From: Variovorax sp. PBL-E5
Lineage (GTDB): Bacteria > Pseudomonadota > Gammaproteobacteria > Burkholderiales > Burkholderiaceae_C
Direction of reading: 5' to 3'
Assembly: GCF_901827185.1 (NCBI RefSeq)
Contig: NZ_LR594671.1
Location: forward strand, 1,736,001 to 1,800,000
Length of the DNA: 64,000 bases
In this document: positions 20,157 to 30,372 of the stretch, piece by piece
Position numbering within the stretch: position 1 is the first letter of the stretch
Layout of the letters: each line of letters begins with the position of its first letter
Notes under the pieces: model-generated
Databases searched by the model: none
What the model was told of the DNA's origin: nothing
Seen by the model: the letters and a program-made list of their open reading frames with translations, nothing else
Program-made: the position numbers and the translations under genes

Positions 20157-21593
20157 ATGCAGAACTTCGACAACCTCATCAACGGCGAATGGCGCGCCGG
20201 CGCCAGCTACAGCGCCAACACCAACCCGAGCAACCTGGGCGACGTGCTGGGCCACTACACCCAGGGCGACGCCACGCACGTCGAAGCCGCTGTGGCGGCT
20301 GCGACGGCCGCCTTCCCCGCCTGGTCCACCGGCGGCATCCAGGCGCGCTCGGACGCCCTCGACAAGATCGGCAACGAAATCCTCGCCCGTAAGGAAGAAC
20401 TCGGCACCCTGCTCGCGCGCGAAGAAGGCAAGACAAAGGCCGAAGGCATCGGCGAAGCCGCCCGCGCCGGCCAGATCTTCAAGTTCTTCGCCGGCGAATG
20501 CCTGCGCCTCTCGGGTGAAGTCCTCCCCTCCGTGCGCCCCGGCATCGGCATCGAGATCACCCGCGAGCCCCTCGGCGTCGTGGGTCTGATCACCCCGTGG
20601 AACTTCCCCATCGCCATCCCCGCCTGGAAGATCGCCCCGGCCCTGGCCTTCGGCAACTGCGTCGTGATGAAGCCCGCCGACCTCGTGCCCGGCTGCGCCT
20701 GGGCGCTGGCCGAGATCATCAGCCGCTCGGGCATCGCCCCCGGCGTCTTCAACCTCGTCATGGGCCGCGGCAGCCTCATCGGCGATGCACTGGTCAACCA
20801 CCCCGGCATCCACGCCATCAGCTTCACCGGCTCCGTGGGCGTCGGCCGCCACATCGCCATCCAGTGCGCCACGAAGCACAAGAAAGTCCAGCTGGAGATG
20901 GGCGGCAAGAACCCGCAGGTCGTGCTCGACGACGCCGACCTGAACCAGGCCGTCGAGCTCAGCGTGCAGAGCGCCTTCTACTCCACCGGCCAGCGCTGCA
21001 CCGCAGCCAGCCGGCTGATCGTGACCGAAGGCATCTACCCGAAGTTCATCGACGCCATGAAGGCCCGCATGGCGAAGATCCAGGTCGGCGATGCCTTGGC
21101 GCAGGGCACCGACATCGGCCCGGTCTCCAGCGGCAGCCAGCTCCAGCAGGATCTTGAATACATCGAGATCGGCAGAAAGGAAGGCGCCACGCTGGCCGCG
21201 GGCGGCGAGCGCCTGAAGCTCGACACCGAGGGCTTCTACATGTCGCCCGCACTCTTCAGCGAATCGGTGGCCGGCATGCGCATCAACAAGGAGGAGATCT
21301 TCGGCCCGGTGGCCAGCGTGATCCGGGTGAAGAACTACGAGGAGGCGCTGGCGACGGCGAACGACACCGAATTCGGCCTCTCGGCGGGCATCGCGACGAC
21401 GAGCCTGAAGTACGCGACGCACTTCAAGCGCCACAGCCAGGCGGGGATGGTGATGGTGAACCTGCCCACGGCAGGGGTGGACTACCACGTGCCCTTCGGC
21501 GGGCGCAAGGGCTCGAGCTACGGGCCGCGCGAGCAGGGGCGCTATGCGCAGGAGTTCTTCACGGTGGTCAAGACGGCCTACACGCTGGCCTAG
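20157..21593 (+). CDS. 2-oxoglutarate semialdehyde dehydrogenase
   Basis: This 478-residue NAD(P)-dependent aldehyde dehydrogenase is placed to convert 2-oxoglutarate semialdehyde to 2-oxoglutarate, the last step of the uronate pathway. The catalytic cysteine is C281 in STGQRCTAASR and the general base E247 in VQLEMGGKNPQ. The Asn of TPWNFP and the FTGSVGVG coenzyme loop are present. Other aldehyde dehydrogenases have similar sequences, so the specificity rests on context. It is the last gene of the rightward set and is tail-to-tail with the permease fusion, overlapping by 4 bases. Confidence 0.9.
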   Translation: MQNFDNLINGEWRAGASYSANTNPSNLGDVLGHYTQGDATHVEAAVAAATAAFPAWSTGGIQARSDALDKIGNEILARKEELGTLLAREEGKTKAEGIGEAARAGQIFKFFAGECLRLSGEVLPSVRPGIGIEITREPLGVVGLITPWNFPIAIPAWKIAPALAFGNCVVMKPADLVPGCAWALAEIISRSGIAPGVFNLVMGRGSLIGDALVNHPGIHAISFTGSVGVGRHIAIQCATKHKKVQLEMGGKNPQVVLDDADLNQAVELSVQSAFYSTGQRCTAASRLIVTEGIYPKFIDAMKARMAKIQVGDALAQGTDIGPVSSGSQLQQDLEYIEIGRKEGATLAAGGERLKLDTEGFYMSPALFSESVAGMRINKEEIFGPVASVIRVKNYEEALATANDTEFGLSAGIATTSLKYATHFKRHSQAGMVMVNLPTAGVDYHVPFGGRKGSSYGPREQGRYAQEFFTVVKTAYTLA

Positions 21594-23122
21594 CTTCCCG
21601 TCTGACGGCGGCTGCGCCGCAGCGCGTAGTCGATCAACTCGAACACCGCCTCGCTCAACAGCGCCAGCACCGCGGCCGGCACGGCACCTGCCATCAGCAG
21701 TTGCCGGTCGTTGAGCGCGAGGCCGGTCACGATCCGCTCGCCGAACCCGCCGGCGCCGATGAAGGCCGCGATGGTCGCGGTGCCGATGGCGATCGTGGTC
21801 GCGGTTCTCACGCCGGCCAGCAGCGTGGGCAGCGCCAGCGGCAGCATCACCGTGCGCAGGCTCTGCGCGCCCGTCATGCCCAGCGCGGTGCCGGCCTGGC
21901 GCAGGCCGCCCGGCACCTCGGCCAGTCCGGTCACGGTGTTGCGCATGATCGGCAGCAGCGAATAGAGCGTCAGCGCGATGAGCGCAGGCAGTGTCCCGAT
22001 CGCGCCCAGCAGCGAGATCAGCACTGCGAGCAGGGCCAGCGAGGGAATGGTCTGCAAGAGCCCGGTCAGCCCGAGCACCACCGCGCGCAGGCGCAGGTTC
22101 GGGAACACGAGAATCCCGAGCGGCACTGCAATCAGGATCGCCAGCCCCACCGAGACGGCGACCAGCAGCAGATGCTCGCGCGCCAGCCGGCCGAGGTCCG
22201 GCCCGAACAGCTTGGCGACGAAGCCTCGCTCTGCGCTGGCTGCCGGCGCGGCGCCGCCCTGGGCCTGCACGAGGAAGTCGCGCGCGATCACGTCGAAGGC
22301 CGCGCCCTGCAATTCGGCGCGCGCGTTCATCGCGATCATCGCGCGCTCGTCGATACGGCCTTCGAGCTTCGTCAGTGCGGCCCAGGCTTGCGGAAAGCGC
22401 TTCGGCACGTCGAGGCGGTACAGCACGACCGCGTCGTAGCGCGGAAAGTAGTGGCGGTCGTCCTCGAGCACGCGCAGGCCGAGATGGTCGATCTTCGCGT
22501 CGGTGGTGTAGATGTCGATCACGTCGATCTGCTGGGCGGCGATCGCGTCGTAGGCGAGGCCGTGGTCCAGGCCGGTGGGCGCCTGCCTGAAGCCGTAGCG
22601 GCTGGCGAGTCCCTGCCAGCCGTCGGCGCGGCCGATGAATTCGTTCGACAGGCCGAGCTTGAGTTCGGGATGGGCGGCCAGGTCGCTCAGCGTCTTCACG
22701 CCGAGACGGTCCGCATCGGCCGCGCGCATGGCGAGCGCATAACCGTCGTTGAAGCCGAGCGGAATCGCGACGCCCAGTCCGAGCGGCGCCAGTGCCGCGT
22801 TCATGGCCTCGCGCGTCATCGACTGCGGGCCCTTCAGGATCTCCTGCGCGATGGTGCCGGTGTACTCGGCGTAGAGGTCGATGCCGCCGGAGCGCAGGGC
22901 CTCGTAGACGATGGCCGTGTTGCCCAGCCCCTGCTTCACCACGGGCGGGGAGGGCAGTTGCGGCGCCGCCGTCTGCGCCAGCACTTCGGCGAGGATGTAC
23001 GACTCGGTGAAGCGCTTGGACCCGACGCGCAGGCTCTCGCCCTGCGCGAGCGCGGGTGCCGCCGCGCAGAGCAGACCCAGGCAGAAAGCGGCGCGGAGCC
23101 ACGCGCGGTACAAGGAAGGCAT
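21590..23122 (-). CDS. glycine betaine/osmoprotectant-type ABC transporter: binding protein fused to permease
   Basis: This is a 510-residue fusion. A Sec signal at about 1-27 (FCLGLLCAAAPALAQ) is followed by an OpuAC/OsmF-type binding domain beginning LRVGSKRFTESYILAEVLAQ (to about residue 300). An OpuBB-type permease domain follows, with EAA-like ALGMTGAQSLRTVMLPLALP and about five or six membrane spans. In most bacteria the binding and permease parts are separate or fused in the opposite order. No ATPase gene is adjacent. The ligand may be a quaternary amine, and the ATPase is presumably encoded elsewhere. The ATG at 23122 is preferred because it gives a clean signal peptide. Confidence 0.87.
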   Translation of the reverse strand: MPSLYRAWLRAAFCLGLLCAAAPALAQGESLRVGSKRFTESYILAEVLAQTAAPQLPSPPVVKQGLGNTAIVYEALRSGGIDLYAEYTGTIAQEILKGPQSMTREAMNAALAPLGLGVAIPLGFNDGYALAMRAADADRLGVKTLSDLAAHPELKLGLSNEFIGRADGWQGLASRYGFRQAPTGLDHGLAYDAIAAQQIDVIDIYTTDAKIDHLGLRVLEDDRHYFPRYDAVVLYRLDVPKRFPQAWAALTKLEGRIDERAMIAMNARAELQGAAFDVIARDFLVQAQGGAAPAASAERGFVAKLFGPDLGRLAREHLLLVAVSVGLAILIAVPLGILVFPNLRLRAVVLGLTGLLQTIPSLALLAVLISLLGAIGTLPALIALTLYSLLPIMRNTVTGLAEVPGGLRQAGTALGMTGAQSLRTVMLPLALPTLLAGVRTATTIAIGTATIAAFIGAGGFGERIVTGLALNDRQLLMAGAVPAAVLALLSEAVFELIDYALRRSRRQTGS

Positions 23123-23230
23123 CGCGGCAGTGTATCGGCGCCGCGGTTCGCGGCGAATACGCCGGTCTCCTACAGCCGATCGTGCGCACAGCCGATGCGG
23201 CTGCGGGCCGGCTGAACTCAAAGTGAACGC

Positions 23231-24019
23231 GTGCTGATCAACTATGTCCGCCGCGGAGAAGGTAAGACCTTGCTGCTGATCCACGGATTGGGCAGCAACT
23301 GGCGTTCGTGGCAGACGATCATGGCGCCGCTGGCGACCGAGCGCAGCGTGGTGGCGATCGACCTGCCGGGCTTCGGCAAGAGCCCGCCGCTCGAGGGCGA
23401 GGTGTCGATCCGCGCGCTCGCCGATGCGGTCACCCGCTTCCTGCACGAACACGAATTGCTCGGCACCGACGTCGTCGGCAGTTCGATGGGCGCGCGCCTG
23501 GTGCTCGAGCTCGCGCGCCGCGGCAACGTGGTCGGCGCGGTGGTGTCGCTCGACCCCGGCGGCTTCTGGGCCGGGTGGGAGCGCCATGCCTTTCACGCCT
23601 CGATCTGGCTGTCGGTGCGCCTGGCGCGCAGGCTGCAGTTCGCGATGCCGGCGATCACGCAAAGTCCTCGCTGGCGCGCGCTGCTGCTCACGCAACTCTC
23701 GGCGCAGGCGGCGGCGCTGGCGCCTTCGCTGGTGCTGGAGGAGATGCGCAGCTATGCAACGGCGCCGTCCTTCGACCGGATGCTGCGGGATCTGGTTCGC
23801 GGTGCGGCGCAGGAAGGTGCGGCCAGCGGGAGCCTGGGCAAGCCGCTGGTGATCGGCTGGGGCCGTCTCGATCGGGTCTGTCTGGCGCGGCAGGCGGCGC
23901 GTGCCCGGCTGCTGTTCCCCGATGCGCGCCTGCACTGGTTCGAACGCAGCGGGCACTTCCCGCACTGGGATGCGCCGGAGGAGACGGCGCGCCTCATCCT
24001 CGAGACGACGGCCGATTGA
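23231..24019 (+). CDS. alpha/beta hydrolase
   Basis: This 262-residue cytosolic alpha/beta hydrolase begins at a GTG. The oxyanion HG is in LLLIHGLGSNW, the nucleophile elbow GSSMG is in VVGSSMGARLVLEL, the likely acid Asp is in IGWGRLDRVC, and the His is in RSGHFPHWDAPE. These fit the haloperoxidase/epoxide-hydrolase-like branch, with substrate unknown. It is divergent from the permease fusion, and the ROK-family gene follows 17 bases later in the same direction, so they may form a pair. Confidence 0.85.
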   Translation: MLINYVRRGEGKTLLLIHGLGSNWRSWQTIMAPLATERSVVAIDLPGFGKSPPLEGEVSIRALADAVTRFLHEHELLGTDVVGSSMGARLVLELARRGNVVGAVVSLDPGGFWAGWERHAFHASIWLSVRLARRLQFAMPAITQSPRWRALLLTQLSAQAAALAPSLVLEEMRSYATAPSFDRMLRDLVRGAAQEGAASGSLGKPLVIGWGRLDRVCLARQAARARLLFPDARLHWFERSGHFPHWDAPEETARLILETTAD

Positions 24020-24036
24020 TCGACATCCATCTCCTC

Positions 24037-25107
24037 ATGAAAGACTTCATGCCAACCGACACGCCCGCGCATCCGCTTCCCGACGTCCACGGTGCGAGGG
24101 AGCTGTCTTCGGTGGTGGTCGAGGGCTACAGCCTTCAGTTGCGCGACAAGGATGGCTTCGTCGGCGACCAGGCCAGCCAGACCGCGTTCAGGCAGTTGCT
24201 GGAACGCTGGCGGCAACGGCGCCGCAGGAAGGGCGAGGATCCGCTGGGCGGCAAGCATTCGAGAGAGCTGACCAAGAAAGTGCTGGACCAGGCGGTGGCC
24301 AGCAGGATGGCTTCCGAGGCGGCCGACCTGGTGCACGGCGCGATCGAGGAATTCGCCGAGGAACTGGCCTGGGTGATCGACCGCTTCCTGCGCCAGCCGT
24401 CGTGGAAGGGTGTCGAGCGGATCGTGATCGGCGGCGGCTTTCCGGGTAGCGATGTCGGCGAACGGGTGATCCTGCAGGCGGCGGCCGTGCTCGAGGAGAT
24501 GAACGTGCATGTTCAGCTCGGGCGCATCGGCCACGAGACCGACGATGGCGGCCTGATCGGCTGGGTGCATCTCACGCCGCCGCCGATGCTCCGGCACCAC
24601 GATGCCATCCTCGCGCTCGACATCGGCGGCACCAACGTGCGTTGCGGCATCGTCAAGACGCGCATCCGGCGGGCATCGGACCTGTCGAAGGCCAAGGTGG
24701 TGCGGCGCGAGAAGTGGCGCCATGCGGACGAGCGCCCGAGCCGCAAGGTGCTGGTCGAGCGGCTGGCCGAGATGCTCGAGGACAAGATCCGCTACAGCCG
24801 GAAGAAGGGCCTGCGGCTCGCACCCTTCATCGGCATCGCCTGCCCGGGACTGATCCGCAAGGACGGCTCGATCGCGCGCGGCGCGCAGAACCTGCCGGGC
24901 GACTGGGAGAGCGACAACTTTCACCTGCCGACCGAGCTGTGCAAGCGGCTGCCCTCGATCGGCGGCGAGGCGACCGTGGCGCTGATGCACAACGACGCCG
25001 TCGTGCAAGGCCTCAGCGAGCTGCCCTTCATGCAGGACGTGAAGCGCTGGGCCGTGCTGACCATCGGCACCGGACTCGGCAACGCGAGTTACACCAATCG
25101 GCGGTGA
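24037..25107 (+). CDS. ROK-family kinase-like protein with circularly permuted motif order
   Basis: This 356-residue protein carries the motifs of sugar-kinase-type ROK proteins in rearranged order. The motifs that normally lie near the ROK C-terminus come first: VIGGGF (130-135) and DDGGLIG (169-175). The N-terminal half follows: LALDIGGTN (192-200, phosphate 1), GIACPGLI (266-273), HND with likely catalytic Asp320, and TIGTGLGN (342-349, phosphate 2), only seven residues before the end. The cysteine zinc motif of many ROK proteins is absent. The simplest reading is a circular permutation joining the old C- and N-termini near residues 180-190. It could phosphorylate a sugar-like substrate, which is inference. 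An alternative start lies at 24049. Confidence 0.8.
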   Translation: MKDFMPTDTPAHPLPDVHGARELSSVVVEGYSLQLRDKDGFVGDQASQTAFRQLLERWRQRRRRKGEDPLGGKHSRELTKKVLDQAVASRMASEAADLVHGAIEEFAEELAWVIDRFLRQPSWKGVERIVIGGGFPGSDVGERVILQAAAVLEEMNVHVQLGRIGHETDDGGLIGWVHLTPPPMLRHHDAILALDIGGTNVRCGIVKTRIRRASDLSKAKVVRREKWRHADERPSRKVLVERLAEMLEDKIRYSRKKGLRLAPFIGIACPGLIRKDGSIARGAQNLPGDWESDNFHLPTELCKRLPSIGGEATVALMHNDAVVQGLSELPFMQDVKRWAVLTIGTGLGNASYTNRR

Positions 25108-25108
25108 T

Positions 25109-26356
25109 TCAGTCGCGCGCCGCGCCGCCCGCATGGGCCGCTTCCGCGGCATCCAGCCATCGGCCGACGAGGCCGGCATCGCGTGCGTCGTACGCCTGTT
25201 GCAGGTCGCTGCCGGCAATGAAGGTCAGCGACGGATGCGCGAGGCGCAAGCGCTCGATCTCCTCGCCCGTTTGCGCGATGCCGCGGCGGTTGCCTGCGAC
25301 GTACAGGGTGACCGGAACGACCGCCACCCTGAGTTCGCGCGACCACGCCTGCGCGCGGCGTCGAACATGGGCTGCGAGGCCTTCGCCGAGTGCGCGCAGC
25401 GCATCGTCGACCGCCACCAGCACGCCCGTTCTTCCATCGAGCTCGAACAGGACCGTGTCCGTCCCCGCGCCGCCCTTCTGCGCATAGGCGCCCAGCGCAT
25501 GCAGCACCAGGGCCGCGGCATCGAGCGCGCCGACGGCATCGCCATCATGCAATTGCCGCAGGAAGGCCAGGTCCGAAAGCTGCCGCGCCAGCGTGTCATG
25601 TTCGGCGTCGAGTGCCCGCCGTTGTGCGGCAAGCTCGGCCAGGCGCCGGCGCAACGCCGACTCGCCAGGCATGTCGAACGAGGTCTTCCACGCAGGCGAT
25701 GACGACGGCGCCGAGCCTTCGAAGCGAAGGCGCGAGGCCATGTCGGCGATCGCGCGCACGATGCCGTCGACGGCGGCGGCCGGAACGGACGGCGCGAGTG
25801 CGGGAAGGACGATGACGCGGCCAGGGTGGCGGTACTGGTACAGCGCGCAGACGCGCTCGGTTCCCGCGACGGTCGCGATGGGCTGCGCATTCGCGGCGTC
25901 GAACTCGGCGGTGGCCGCGAAGCGCTCGCCGATGGCATCGAAGAAGCTGCGAAAGGGCTCGCCGACCGTGCATGCGACCGCGGCCGGCGCGCGTTCCGTT
26001 CGGCGCAGGCCGGCATGGTCCGGCAGCGCCTCGATGAAGTCGTAGCCCACCACGTCCTGCACCGTGTGGATGCCCAGCGTGCCGTGACCGGGCGCCAGCA
26101 TCACGAGTGTGCCGCCGCGGCCGATGAAGGCCCGGAACTCGTCGCGCCAGAAACGCGAATCCTTGACGAGCCGCTGCGAGTCGGCGACGCCCAGCACGGG
26201 GCGCCCCAGGTGCGTGCCCTCCACCCCATACACACCGGTGATCGCGGCCGGCTGCCATACCAGCACGTCGACCGAATCCAGCGGACCCGGCTGCGGGAAG
26301 CTCAAGTGGAGGGCGTGGTCCAGCGAGGCCGGGAGGTCGAGAAGTGCGAGCTGCAT
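25109..26356 (-). CDS. hypothetical protein with central coiled coil
   Basis: I do not recognise this 415-residue protein. Residues 1-110 look like an alpha/beta domain, with FIGRGGTLVMLAPGHGTLG resembling a glutamine-amidotransferase-like or ThuA-like fold. A charged helical stretch follows near residues 220-260 (RRRLAELAAQRRALDAEHDT), likely a coiled coil. The C-terminus (about 270-400) alternates strands and helices, with VLFELDGRTGVLVAVDD and VVPVTLYVAGNRRGIA reminiscent of restriction-endonuclease-like folds but without a visible E-x-K. No signal peptide is seen. It is tail-to-tail with the ROK gene and divergent from the GntR gene. Confidence 0.75.
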   Translation of the reverse strand: MQLALLDLPASLDHALHLSFPQPGPLDSVDVLVWQPAAITGVYGVEGTHLGRPVLGVADSQRLVKDSRFWRDEFRAFIGRGGTLVMLAPGHGTLGIHTVQDVVGYDFIEALPDHAGLRRTERAPAAVACTVGEPFRSFFDAIGERFAATAEFDAANAQPIATVAGTERVCALYQYRHPGRVIVLPALAPSVPAAAVDGIVRAIADMASRLRFEGSAPSSSPAWKTSFDMPGESALRRRLAELAAQRRALDAEHDTLARQLSDLAFLRQLHDGDAVGALDAAALVLHALGAYAQKGGAGTDTVLFELDGRTGVLVAVDDALRALGEGLAAHVRRRAQAWSRELRVAVVPVTLYVAGNRRGIAQTGEEIERLRLAHPSLTFIAGSDLQQAYDARDAGLVGRWLDAAEAAHAGGAARD

Positions 26357-28513: not shown

Positions 28514-29452
28514 ATGGCACCCGCTGCAACGATGACGTCGCGCACGATCCTGGATGCGCCCGAGAACCGCTTTCCGCTGAACCTCGACATCGAGATTCCG
28601 CGCATCCGCAATCTCTTCCATGCGGCCACCAGCAACCAGTGGAACCCAAGCCTGGACATCGACTGGCCCGCGCTGGACATCAGCCCCTACAGCGAGAAGC
28701 AGCTCTATGCCGCGCGCATGTACTGGAGCCGCCGCGCCTGGGGCGAGTACGGCGCGATCTCCGAATCGCCCGCGCTCCAGATCCGCTTCTGCAAGGAGAA
28801 CTGCGCGCCCGACATGCGCCTGTTCTTCGCCATCCGCACGCAGGAAGAGTCGCGCCATGCCGAGGTGTGCTTTCGCATGGCCGAGATGCTGGGCGGCTAC
28901 ATCGAGCAGCCCGATCTCTCCGAGTTCCAGGGCGCGGTCGCCACGCACGGCGTGCGCAAGATGGCGCTCGATCCGGACGTACCGCTCGAAGGCGTGATCG
29001 CGGCGCTGGTCTGCGCGGCCGAAGAGATCGCCTTCGACGTGTTCCGCCACCTGATCGACATCACGCCCAACCCGGTCGCCGCGCAGGTCTTGAAAAGCAT
29101 CATGCGCGACGAGGTCCGGCATTGCGCCTTCGGCTGGGCCTTCATGAACAGCCGCATTCCCCATCTGTCGAAGACGCAGCTCGGCGCGGTGGAAGATGCC
29201 GTCATCACCATGATCGAGAAGGTGGAGCTCAACGGTTATCACAGCGCCTGGCTGTCGCCGGAAGGGCCAGCGGCCCGGGCCGAAATCGAAGTCGACCGGC
29301 TGACCTGGGAAGCCGGACTGGGCGCCACGGTGGAGGAGTTGGAGAAGCCTGTCTTCATCGCCTCCGTGCAGCGCGTTCGCCGGCAGATGCAGGAGTCCTG
29401 GGGCATCCGCCTGCCGATGTTCCGCCACCACAAGATCGACGGCGAGTTCTGA
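28514..29452 (+). CDS. ferritin-like di-iron protein A (possible oxygenase)
   Basis: This 312-residue, mainly helical protein has a complete set of candidate di-iron ligands in the four-helix order of ferritin-like oxygenases. They are E78 or E84 (WGEYGAISES), E112-x-x-H115 (QEESRHAE), E170/E171 (CAAEEIAFDVF) and E200-x-x-H203 (RDEVRHCAFGW). The family includes R2-type and AurF/CADD-type enzymes that activate O2 for oxidation or N-oxygenation. No signal peptide is seen. It sits 8 bases after the Liv receptor gene and 2 bases before a paralogue. Substrate unknown, possibly the imported compound. Confidence 0.8.
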   Translation: MAPAATMTSRTILDAPENRFPLNLDIEIPRIRNLFHAATSNQWNPSLDIDWPALDISPYSEKQLYAARMYWSRRAWGEYGAISESPALQIRFCKENCAPDMRLFFAIRTQEESRHAEVCFRMAEMLGGYIEQPDLSEFQGAVATHGVRKMALDPDVPLEGVIAALVCAAEEIAFDVFRHLIDITPNPVAAQVLKSIMRDEVRHCAFGWAFMNSRIPHLSKTQLGAVEDAVITMIEKVELNGYHSAWLSPEGPAARAEIEVDRLTWEAGLGATVEELEKPVFIASVQRVRRQMQESWGIRLPMFRHHKIDGEF

Positions 29453-29454
29453 CG

Positions 29455-30372
29455 ATGACACCCACTTCTTCTTCGACTGCCTTGCTGGTGGAGCGGCGGT
29501 TCCCGCTCGCACTCAAGCGTTCGATCGGCTCGATCCGCGAGCTCTACGAGACCAGCAAGCAAAGCCGCTGGGTGCCGGCCAAGGACATCGCGTGGGAGCG
29601 CTTCGACGCTGCCACGTCGTCTGCGGCTGCGCTCGAAGCCGCGCGCTCGGTCTGGAGCCGGCGCGCCTGGGTCGAATACACCGGCCTCGCCGAGACGCCA
29701 GCGCTGCTGATCCGCTTCTGCCTGGAGCTCGACCGCGAGTCGGATCCGAAGTATTTCCTCACGGTGCGCAACACCGACGAGGCCTGGCACGTCGAGAGCT
29801 TCCATCGCTATGCCCAACTCCTGGGCGGCTACCTTGCGCGACCACGCGACGCGCGTTGGGAGGCCGTGCTGAATCGGACGCTCTACCGCGATGCGCTGGA
29901 CGCCACGCAATCGCTCGATGCCTATGTCGCCGTGCATTGCGCGGTCGAGGACGGCCTCGAACTCGCGCTGTACCGCCTCTATGCGGCCAATGCCCGCGAA
30001 CCCGTGGCGGCACAGCTGCTGGAAAAGGTCGTCGCCGCCAAGGAACGCCATGCATCCTTCGGCTGGCTGTATCTCGGGGAGCGCGCGGCGCAGCTGGATG
30101 CGGCCGCGAAGCAGGGCATCGCCGCGCAGATCGAGGCCTGGCTGCGCCACGTCGCCTTTGCGGGCTATCACATCCCGAGCCTGGCGACCGAGATCGACTC
30201 GGGCCCCGATGCCGCGGCTGCGACGCAGGCCGCCGAGGCCGGCCTGGGCGCGGCCACACCGCAGCAGGAAGAGCAGGCCTTCAAGGCTTACCTCGGCGAT
30301 GCGCGCGGGCGCCTCGCGGCGCTCGGCTTCGCATTGCCGGCGCTGCAGCATCCGCGGCTCGGCGAGGTCTGA
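29455..30372 (+). CDS. ferritin-like di-iron protein B with an altered metal site
   Basis: This 305-residue paralogue of the preceding protein shares the SRRAWxEYxxxxExPALxIRFC segment and the same helix order. Candidate ligands E74 or E80, E109-x-x-H112 (DEAWH) and E165 are kept. In the fourth-helix motif the aligned Glu is replaced by Lys (K196-E-R-H199 against E-V-R-H in protein A), so a standard two-iron site is unlikely unless E197 shifts in. It could be a non-catalytic partner forming a heterodimer with protein A, or use one metal. The genes are 2 bases apart, so balanced expression is expected. Confidence 0.78.
   Translation: MTPTSSSTALLVERRFPLALKRSIGSIRELYETSKQSRWVPAKDIAWERFDAATSSAAALEAARSVWSRRAWVEYTGLAETPALLIRFCLELDRESDPKYFLTVRNTDEAWHVESFHRYAQLLGGYLARPRDARWEAVLNRTLYRDALDATQSLDAYVAVHCAVEDGLELALYRLYAANAREPVAAQLLEKVVAAKERHASFGWLYLGERAAQLDAAAKQGIAAQIEAWLRHVAFAGYHIPSLATEIDSGPDAAAATQAAEAGLGAATPQQEEQAFKAYLGDARGRLAALGFALPALQHPRLGEV

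Follow-up and report, generated by a model that had tools for sequence, protein, structure and literature searches.

Swapped halves in a ROK-family protein of Variovorax and rhizobia: a probable natural circular permutation

The DNA considered here, called the window throughout, is a stretch of 64,000 nucleotides from Variovorax sp. PBL-E5 (contig NZ_LR594671.1, positions 1,736,001 to 1,800,000). Its forward strand carries a gene whose product has the motifs of a ROK-family kinase in an unusual order (Table 1). Positions 24037-25107 form a single open frame that encodes 356 residues and contains one stop. The motifs follow one another as IGGGF (131-135), DDGGLIG (169-175), DIGGTN (195-200), HND (318-320), and GTGLGN (344-349), the last sitting seven residues ahead of the stop. 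This arrangement is the one given in an original prediction made from the sequence, and it departs from the canonical ROK order, that is DIGGT, ND, GTG, IGGG, DDAGLIG. The motif NLPGDW is also present, and we take it to be the sugar-site motif. HND is presumably the catalytic Asp motif, with Asp320 as the base. In the window protein, neither ExGH nor the zinc CxCGxxGC loop was found, and residues 1-188 are without any Cys, hence without zinc cysteines. ExGH and the zinc loop are also missing from some canonical-order ROK proteins (for example L002 and L190). The sequence GFVGDxAS may be a remnant of the ROK motif GCLExxxS, with which it is aligned at near-zero confidence. No clear ribosome-binding site was seen in the bases preceding the ATG, and the exact start of the gene is therefore uncertain.

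Table 1. Features of the window in and around the gene with the permuted motif order (A2, alignment of 22 rows of the family).
Feature	Position	Strand	Remarks
Putative circularly permuted ROK-family gene	24037..25107	+	Open frame, 356 aa; kept in hundreds of relatives
C-terminal-half equivalent of canonical ROK, now N-terminal	24088..24561	+	Residues 18-175; profile and fold; 18-76 fold alone
GFVGDQAS, tentative counterpart of ROK GCLExxxS	24154..24177	+	Residues 40-47; low-confidence profile alignment
IGGGF, adenosine motif of ROK C-terminal half	24427..24441	+	G132-G134 and F135 invariant in A2
DDGGLIG, canonical C-terminal DDAGLIGA motif	24541..24561	+	D169, G172, L173, and G175 invariant in A2
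Linker, old C-terminus to old N-terminus	24562..24603	+	Residues 176-189; spanned by one profile alignment
N-terminal-half equivalent of canonical ROK, now C-terminal	24601..25104	+	Residues 189-356; Pfam, profile, fold
DIGGTN, phosphate-1 motif	24619..24636	+	DIGGS or DVGGS in several members outside A2
NLPGDW, counterpart of ROK NLPGW	24889..24906	+	N285, P287, and W290 invariant in A2
HND, catalytic Asp motif	24988..24996	+	Invariant in A2
GTGLGN, phosphate-2 motif	25066..25083	+	Chain stops 7 residues on, at hairpin where canonical ROK continues
Alpha/beta hydrolase	23231..24019	+	PF12697, 4e-22; ends 17 bases upstream of permuted gene
OpuAC-type substrate-binding and permease fusion, divergent	21590..23125	-	Both domains in one protein
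Convergent 415-aa gene downstream	25109-26356	-	No Pfam match

Pfam and profile searches relate each half of the protein to the opposite half of ROK. PF00480 matches residues 192-354 of the window protein only, through profile positions 2-141 of 294 (1.9e-5), with a score of 24.8 bits, above the cut-off of 22.9. Scores reach 47 bits in relatives, and one of the ten relatives tested (L156) has no PF00480 match. NCBIfam gave weak matches only, to the N-terminal part of sugar kinases and far below the cut-offs. In the relative L100 (G066), a stretch matching Pfam ROK positions 177-293 (20.3 bits, below the cut-off) lies upstream of one matching positions 2-140, and two ROK stretches occur in 4 of 10 members tested. 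A profile of the permuted family (56 sequences, 52 used) was then aligned to one built from 38 canonical ROK proteins. The C-half matches canonical positions 8-143 with a score of 107. The N-half (residues ~77-186) matches canonical positions 204-306 with a score of 50.1, the next N-half alignment scoring 12; this match is weak but specific. In 99 of 100 column shuffles, scores did not exceed 22.5 for the N-half, 23.2 for the C-half, and 24.7 for the whole against the duplicated profile. The other shuffle gave an artefact, with scores of 133-136 for alignments of 7 to 28 columns at the end of the template.

The old junction was also crossed. Against a tandem-duplicated canonical profile, one alignment extends from permuted position 77 to 348, across the joined C- and N-termini, with a score of 150.3 (E 3e-19); the best half reaches 108.7 against the single canonical profile. 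A smaller earlier set gave 112.6 (duplicated) vs. 81.3. When ROK groups of 4 sequences were used, the scores were 126.6, 73.6, 63.1, and 45.3, the last without crossing. In the fold comparison, residues ~189-356 match the ROK N-terminal half, and model residues 27-168 align on residues 145-299 of 3vgk, as the predicted permutation implies; residues 18-76 rest on the fold alone. Foldseek with the N-half alone returned nothing useful. The fold lists obtained with the whole model also contain CoaX, MreB, Ppx/GppA, and DnaK, which is usual in this superfamily.

Thus, the order of the halves is swapped, each half matching the opposite ROK half, and the old termini are joined by a short linker. In canonical ROK proteins, GTGxGxG is followed by a hairpin, a second strand, ExGH, the zinc loop, and GCLE, a layout visible in the canonical sequences inspected. 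The new termini lie in the hairpin right after GTGxG, just ahead of the canonical Glu/His and zinc loop, hence presumably beside the sugar site and inside the region of the ROK signature. The best explanation, to which we give a good probability, is that the protein is a ROK-family kinase that has undergone circular permutation in nature, as originally proposed. Judged from its sequence, the protein is ROK by homology of both halves and not ROK by order and signature.

Other explanations of the motif order fare less well. The protein could be an ordinary two-lobe ASKHA protein, each lobe having an RNase H fold, in which the swap is only apparent. The two lobes of an ASKHA protein are duplicates of each other, and sequence alignments of the model include MreB, CoaX, and Ppx/GppA. 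However, the N-half fits the C-half of ROK, with a score of 50 against 12 for the next alignment, rather than the N-half, the C-half does the reverse, and the permuted reading fits all five motifs; an unpermuted protein is very improbable. A frameshift, a misassembly, or a gene fusion peculiar to the window genome has a negligible probability and is refuted by the recurrence of the order in other genomes and on plasmids, hundreds of sequences in all; the original prediction had likewise argued for one continuous frame. Nor is a missing ROK half found in either neighbouring gene, since these are the alpha/beta hydrolase and a convergent gene without Pfam match. The list of open reading frames and the Pfam scan of the adjacent genes rule out that a neighbouring frame supplies it, and in particular the upstream frame, a possible source of a normal N-terminal ROK half, encodes the hydrolase.

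The family is widespread. A protein search with the window protein gave at least 8000 matches at E <= 0.001. The best 120 listed are 69-98% identical to it over 95-100% of the query and come mainly from Variovorax. Those that are named carry labels such as "ROK family protein" or "glucokinase". A second search with a Bradyrhizobium-type member gave matches numbering at least in the thousands, with mainly Bradyrhizobium names among the matches listed. In a scan of one genome per species, 521 stretches encoding relatives were found, and the best 80 were kept. Matching plasmid records number 206, with at least 80% of the query covered in 200. They are mostly from Rhizobium (111) and Sinorhizobium (79) and include pSymB of S. 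meliloti 1021 and pRL10 of R. johnstonii 3841. The permuted gene is carried by at least 18 of 200 genomes of the same taxonomic family, at least 22 of 398 in a phylum sample, and at least 12 of 289 in the class of a Bradyrhizobium-type genome; these counts, from overlapping sets that each include their centre genome, are lower bounds because at most 5-10 candidates were scored per genome. At least 5 of 300 genomes matched in an order-level sample. One of these matches (G790/L155) is a canonical-order ROK on inspection and was dropped. Members are found in beta- and alphaproteobacteria, mostly soil and root bacteria.

Among the collected sequences, 391 match the family model at E <= 1e-20, 390 of them near full length and 354 distinct. 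All five motifs stand in the permuted order in 342 of 353 distinct full-length sequences, so that the order noted in the window does recur in other genomes. The 11 others miss a motif by strict patterns, through DIGGS, DQAAL, IAIGGG, and similar conservative variants or, in one case, a truncated end. DQAAL replaces the DDGGLIG-type motif in the relatives L197 and L199. A model of the permuted family was used to assemble the set of 353, in which the window protein and close relatives are counted. A canonical-order protein could thus hardly enter it, and the absence of canonical order is in part a product of the sampling. The ATP and catalytic motifs are invariant in A2, with conservative variants in other members. 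In the same alignment, K226, W227, and H229 are invariant, R224 is nearly so, and the block HNDAVVQGLSExPF is near-invariant. After an N-terminal tail of variable length come a conserved His-Gly and a strand. Loss of the gene is also possible, since a decayed copy with stops and frame breaks, across which no gene is annotated, lies on the Bradyrhizobium barranii plasmid pCC1502_1 (L161:5001-5394). Two Bradyrhizobium-type genomes (G429 and G445) have two copies each.

The surroundings of the gene differ between groups. The alpha/beta hydrolase and the divergent OpuAC-type transporter recur in Variovorax-type loci, and these and other neighbours are common to related beta genera. A look-alike hydrolase frame occurs within 5 kb at 13 loci and is directly upstream on the same strand in both loci inspected (L008 and L010). 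Co-transcription of the hydrolase and permuted genes is possible. The group of frames that contains the OpuAC-permease fusion is represented at 72 of 81 loci including the window, its members not being inspected singly. Farther along the window, two successive forward-strand frames (~28550-30372) are alike by eye, and the first has a sub-threshold match to AurF, a diiron N-oxygenase. Bradyrhizobium-type copies are near genes reading by eye as rplU, rpmA, and obg. One of the two copies in G445 (L139) is near rpmA- and obg-like genes, while the other (L138) stands elsewhere, with a loose EcfG-like site. The trehalose-phosphatase gene otsB is divergent from the permuted gene in 2 of the 5 annotated plasmid loci with a full gene (L156 and L159, from Rhizobium johnstonii and Shinella), and by eye at the locus L145 as well; further copies are in other settings. 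At two loci (L147 and L149), the neighbours resemble by eye DUF892 ferritin-like and LigD-type DNA ligase proteins, whose genes are typical of general stress. A conserved operon that would name the substrate was sought and rejected, the beta and alpha groups sharing only abundant families (TctC-type receptors, SDRs).

A promoter pattern is found upstream of many alphaproteobacterial copies. The general-stress consensus of EcfG is given as GGAAC-N17-20-GTT in PMC6599016. The pattern scored here was GGAAC-N15-18-[CG]GTT, in the 250 bases that precede the conserved His codon. It occurs in 12 of 30 distinct alpha upstream regions vs. 0 of 24 non-alpha loci, the alpha assignment of L145 resting on kinship and resemblance. 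By set, these are 7 of 21 alpha loci in the discovery set and 5 of 11 in a second, later-drawn set, two loci of which repeat the first and are both negative. Shuffled upstream regions have the pattern in 0.65% of cases. A slightly looser pattern is found at 4 of the 5 plasmid loci, where it was first noticed. Anchoring on the chosen start codons instead gives 6 of 20, with a background of 1.4% of 250-base windows. With the His codon as anchor, the S. meliloti copy scores positive; with the chosen start codon, it scores negative. The pattern is absent upstream of the window gene and from 18 of the 30 alpha regions. In Ensifer aridi, otsBA is described as RpoE2-mediated (PMC8877191). From these upstream sequences, EcfG/RpoE2, the general stress sigma factor, is predicted to activate the permuted gene in many Alphaproteobacteria. 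Because of this predicted control and of the sometimes adjacent otsB, the likeliest role there would be in stress carbohydrate metabolism, for example the supply of hexose phosphate for trehalose. This proposal is not extended to the window gene, since its upstream region is without the pattern.

As for the activity, retention of the ATP and catalytic motifs makes an active cytosolic kinase the most likely reading. Its two RNase H-like lobes would fold into a normal ROK cleft, with ATP-Mg bound through DIGGTN, GTGLGN, and IGGGF. With Asp320 of HND as the base, the enzyme would then phosphorylate a hydroxyl on a small substrate that is probably sugar-like and that NLPGDW would help to hold. The substrate preference is probably unlike that of glucokinase or NagK, because the sugar-reading loop is rebuilt around the new termini and the zinc site is lost. 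Both the activity and the stress role of the family are what we infer. Replacement of the normal glucokinase is unsupported: PF02685 is present in 18 of 36 carriers and the window genome, in which it is absent, has three other ROK genes.

Two other functions can be considered for a permuted ROK fold. The protein may phosphorylate something other than a sugar, for instance an anhydrosugar, an amine, or a polyol, with residues specific to the family defining a new pocket. The loss of the zinc motif and the many conserved residues outside the general ROK pattern point in this direction. The NLPGW-type and HND motifs, which are typical of hexose kinases, are retained however, and we consider such a substrate rather unlikely. 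Still less likely, in our view, is a sensor or partner protein that would no longer be a sugar kinase, like the ROK repressors or some ASKHA ATPases. It would agree with a canonical Glu/His and zinc sugar loop that is not recognisable, with DIGGS instead of DIGGT in some members, and with the lack of a recognised sugar operon around the window gene or of one common to the beta and alpha groups. In contrast, the ATP and catalytic motifs are invariant in A2, and no N-terminal helix-turn-helix was matched in the window protein by Pfam and NCBIfam scans.

The original prediction knew of no described permuted ROK family. None was found among the results listed in the open-access literature searched, most subscription papers being outside its scope. 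In the parts seen of PMC1976428, PMC8014075, PMC10326533, and PMC7824862, the paired search topics occur in unrelated contexts only. It is possible, though we put it forward tentatively, that these proteins are the first natural and widespread circularly permuted sugar kinases of the actin/hexokinase superfamily, with termini at the mouth of the active site, acting as a general-stress kinase in many bacteria on a substrate outside the canonical ROK range. Public labels read "ROK family protein" or "glucokinase", although the order is swapped and, as a rule, only half of the profile is matched. Should the fold be confirmed, the family would be a natural test case for the tolerance of the actin-like kinase fold to new termini beside the active site. 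It would also provide a conserved kinase, directly assayable, in rhizobia and Variovorax, with predicted stress regulation in many Alphaproteobacteria.

Among known systems, the ROK kinases of PF00480 (S. griseus glucokinase 3vgk, GNE ManNAc kinase 2yhw, NagK) are the best profile and fold matches of the permuted family. Both halves, the ATP motifs, HND, and the NLPGW-type and adenosine motifs are held in common. Unlike them, the permuted family has its halves swapped, its termini in the hairpin after GTGxG, no zinc CxCGxxGC motif, and an N-terminal tail of varying length. The proteins L115, L190, and L208, which we take to be ROK proteins of the polyphosphate-glucokinase type, are another close group. 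Like the permuted family, they are zinc-less, with NDAxxQGL and LTxGTGxGxAxF alike and a C-half score of 85 (3 sequences). In contrast, they are shorter and in canonical order, and their N-half match is very weak (24 over 8 columns). Such short zinc-less ROK proteins are a possible parent group, to which the C-half fits well and the N-half does not (3 sequences of 9 loci inspected).

The ROK repressors NagC, Mlc, and XylR share the fold, and the N-half model aligns to 1z05 and 1z6r; the permuted protein differs by having no helix-turn-helix match and by keeping the phosphate motifs. Glucokinase PF02685 and hexokinase PF00349 are weakly alike around DIGGTN and GTG. The PF02685 score of the window protein is 12.4 bits, below the cut-off of 22.1. 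A permuted PF02685 glucokinase instead of ROK is disfavoured: hhalign gave 40.6, with no N-half match and no junction crossing, for a 4-sequence profile unequal in depth to that of ROK. Finally, FtsA-type proteins are a known rearrangement inside the ASKHA fold. There, one subdomain is relocated and the order of the whole chain is not permuted, unlike that of the permuted ROK protein.
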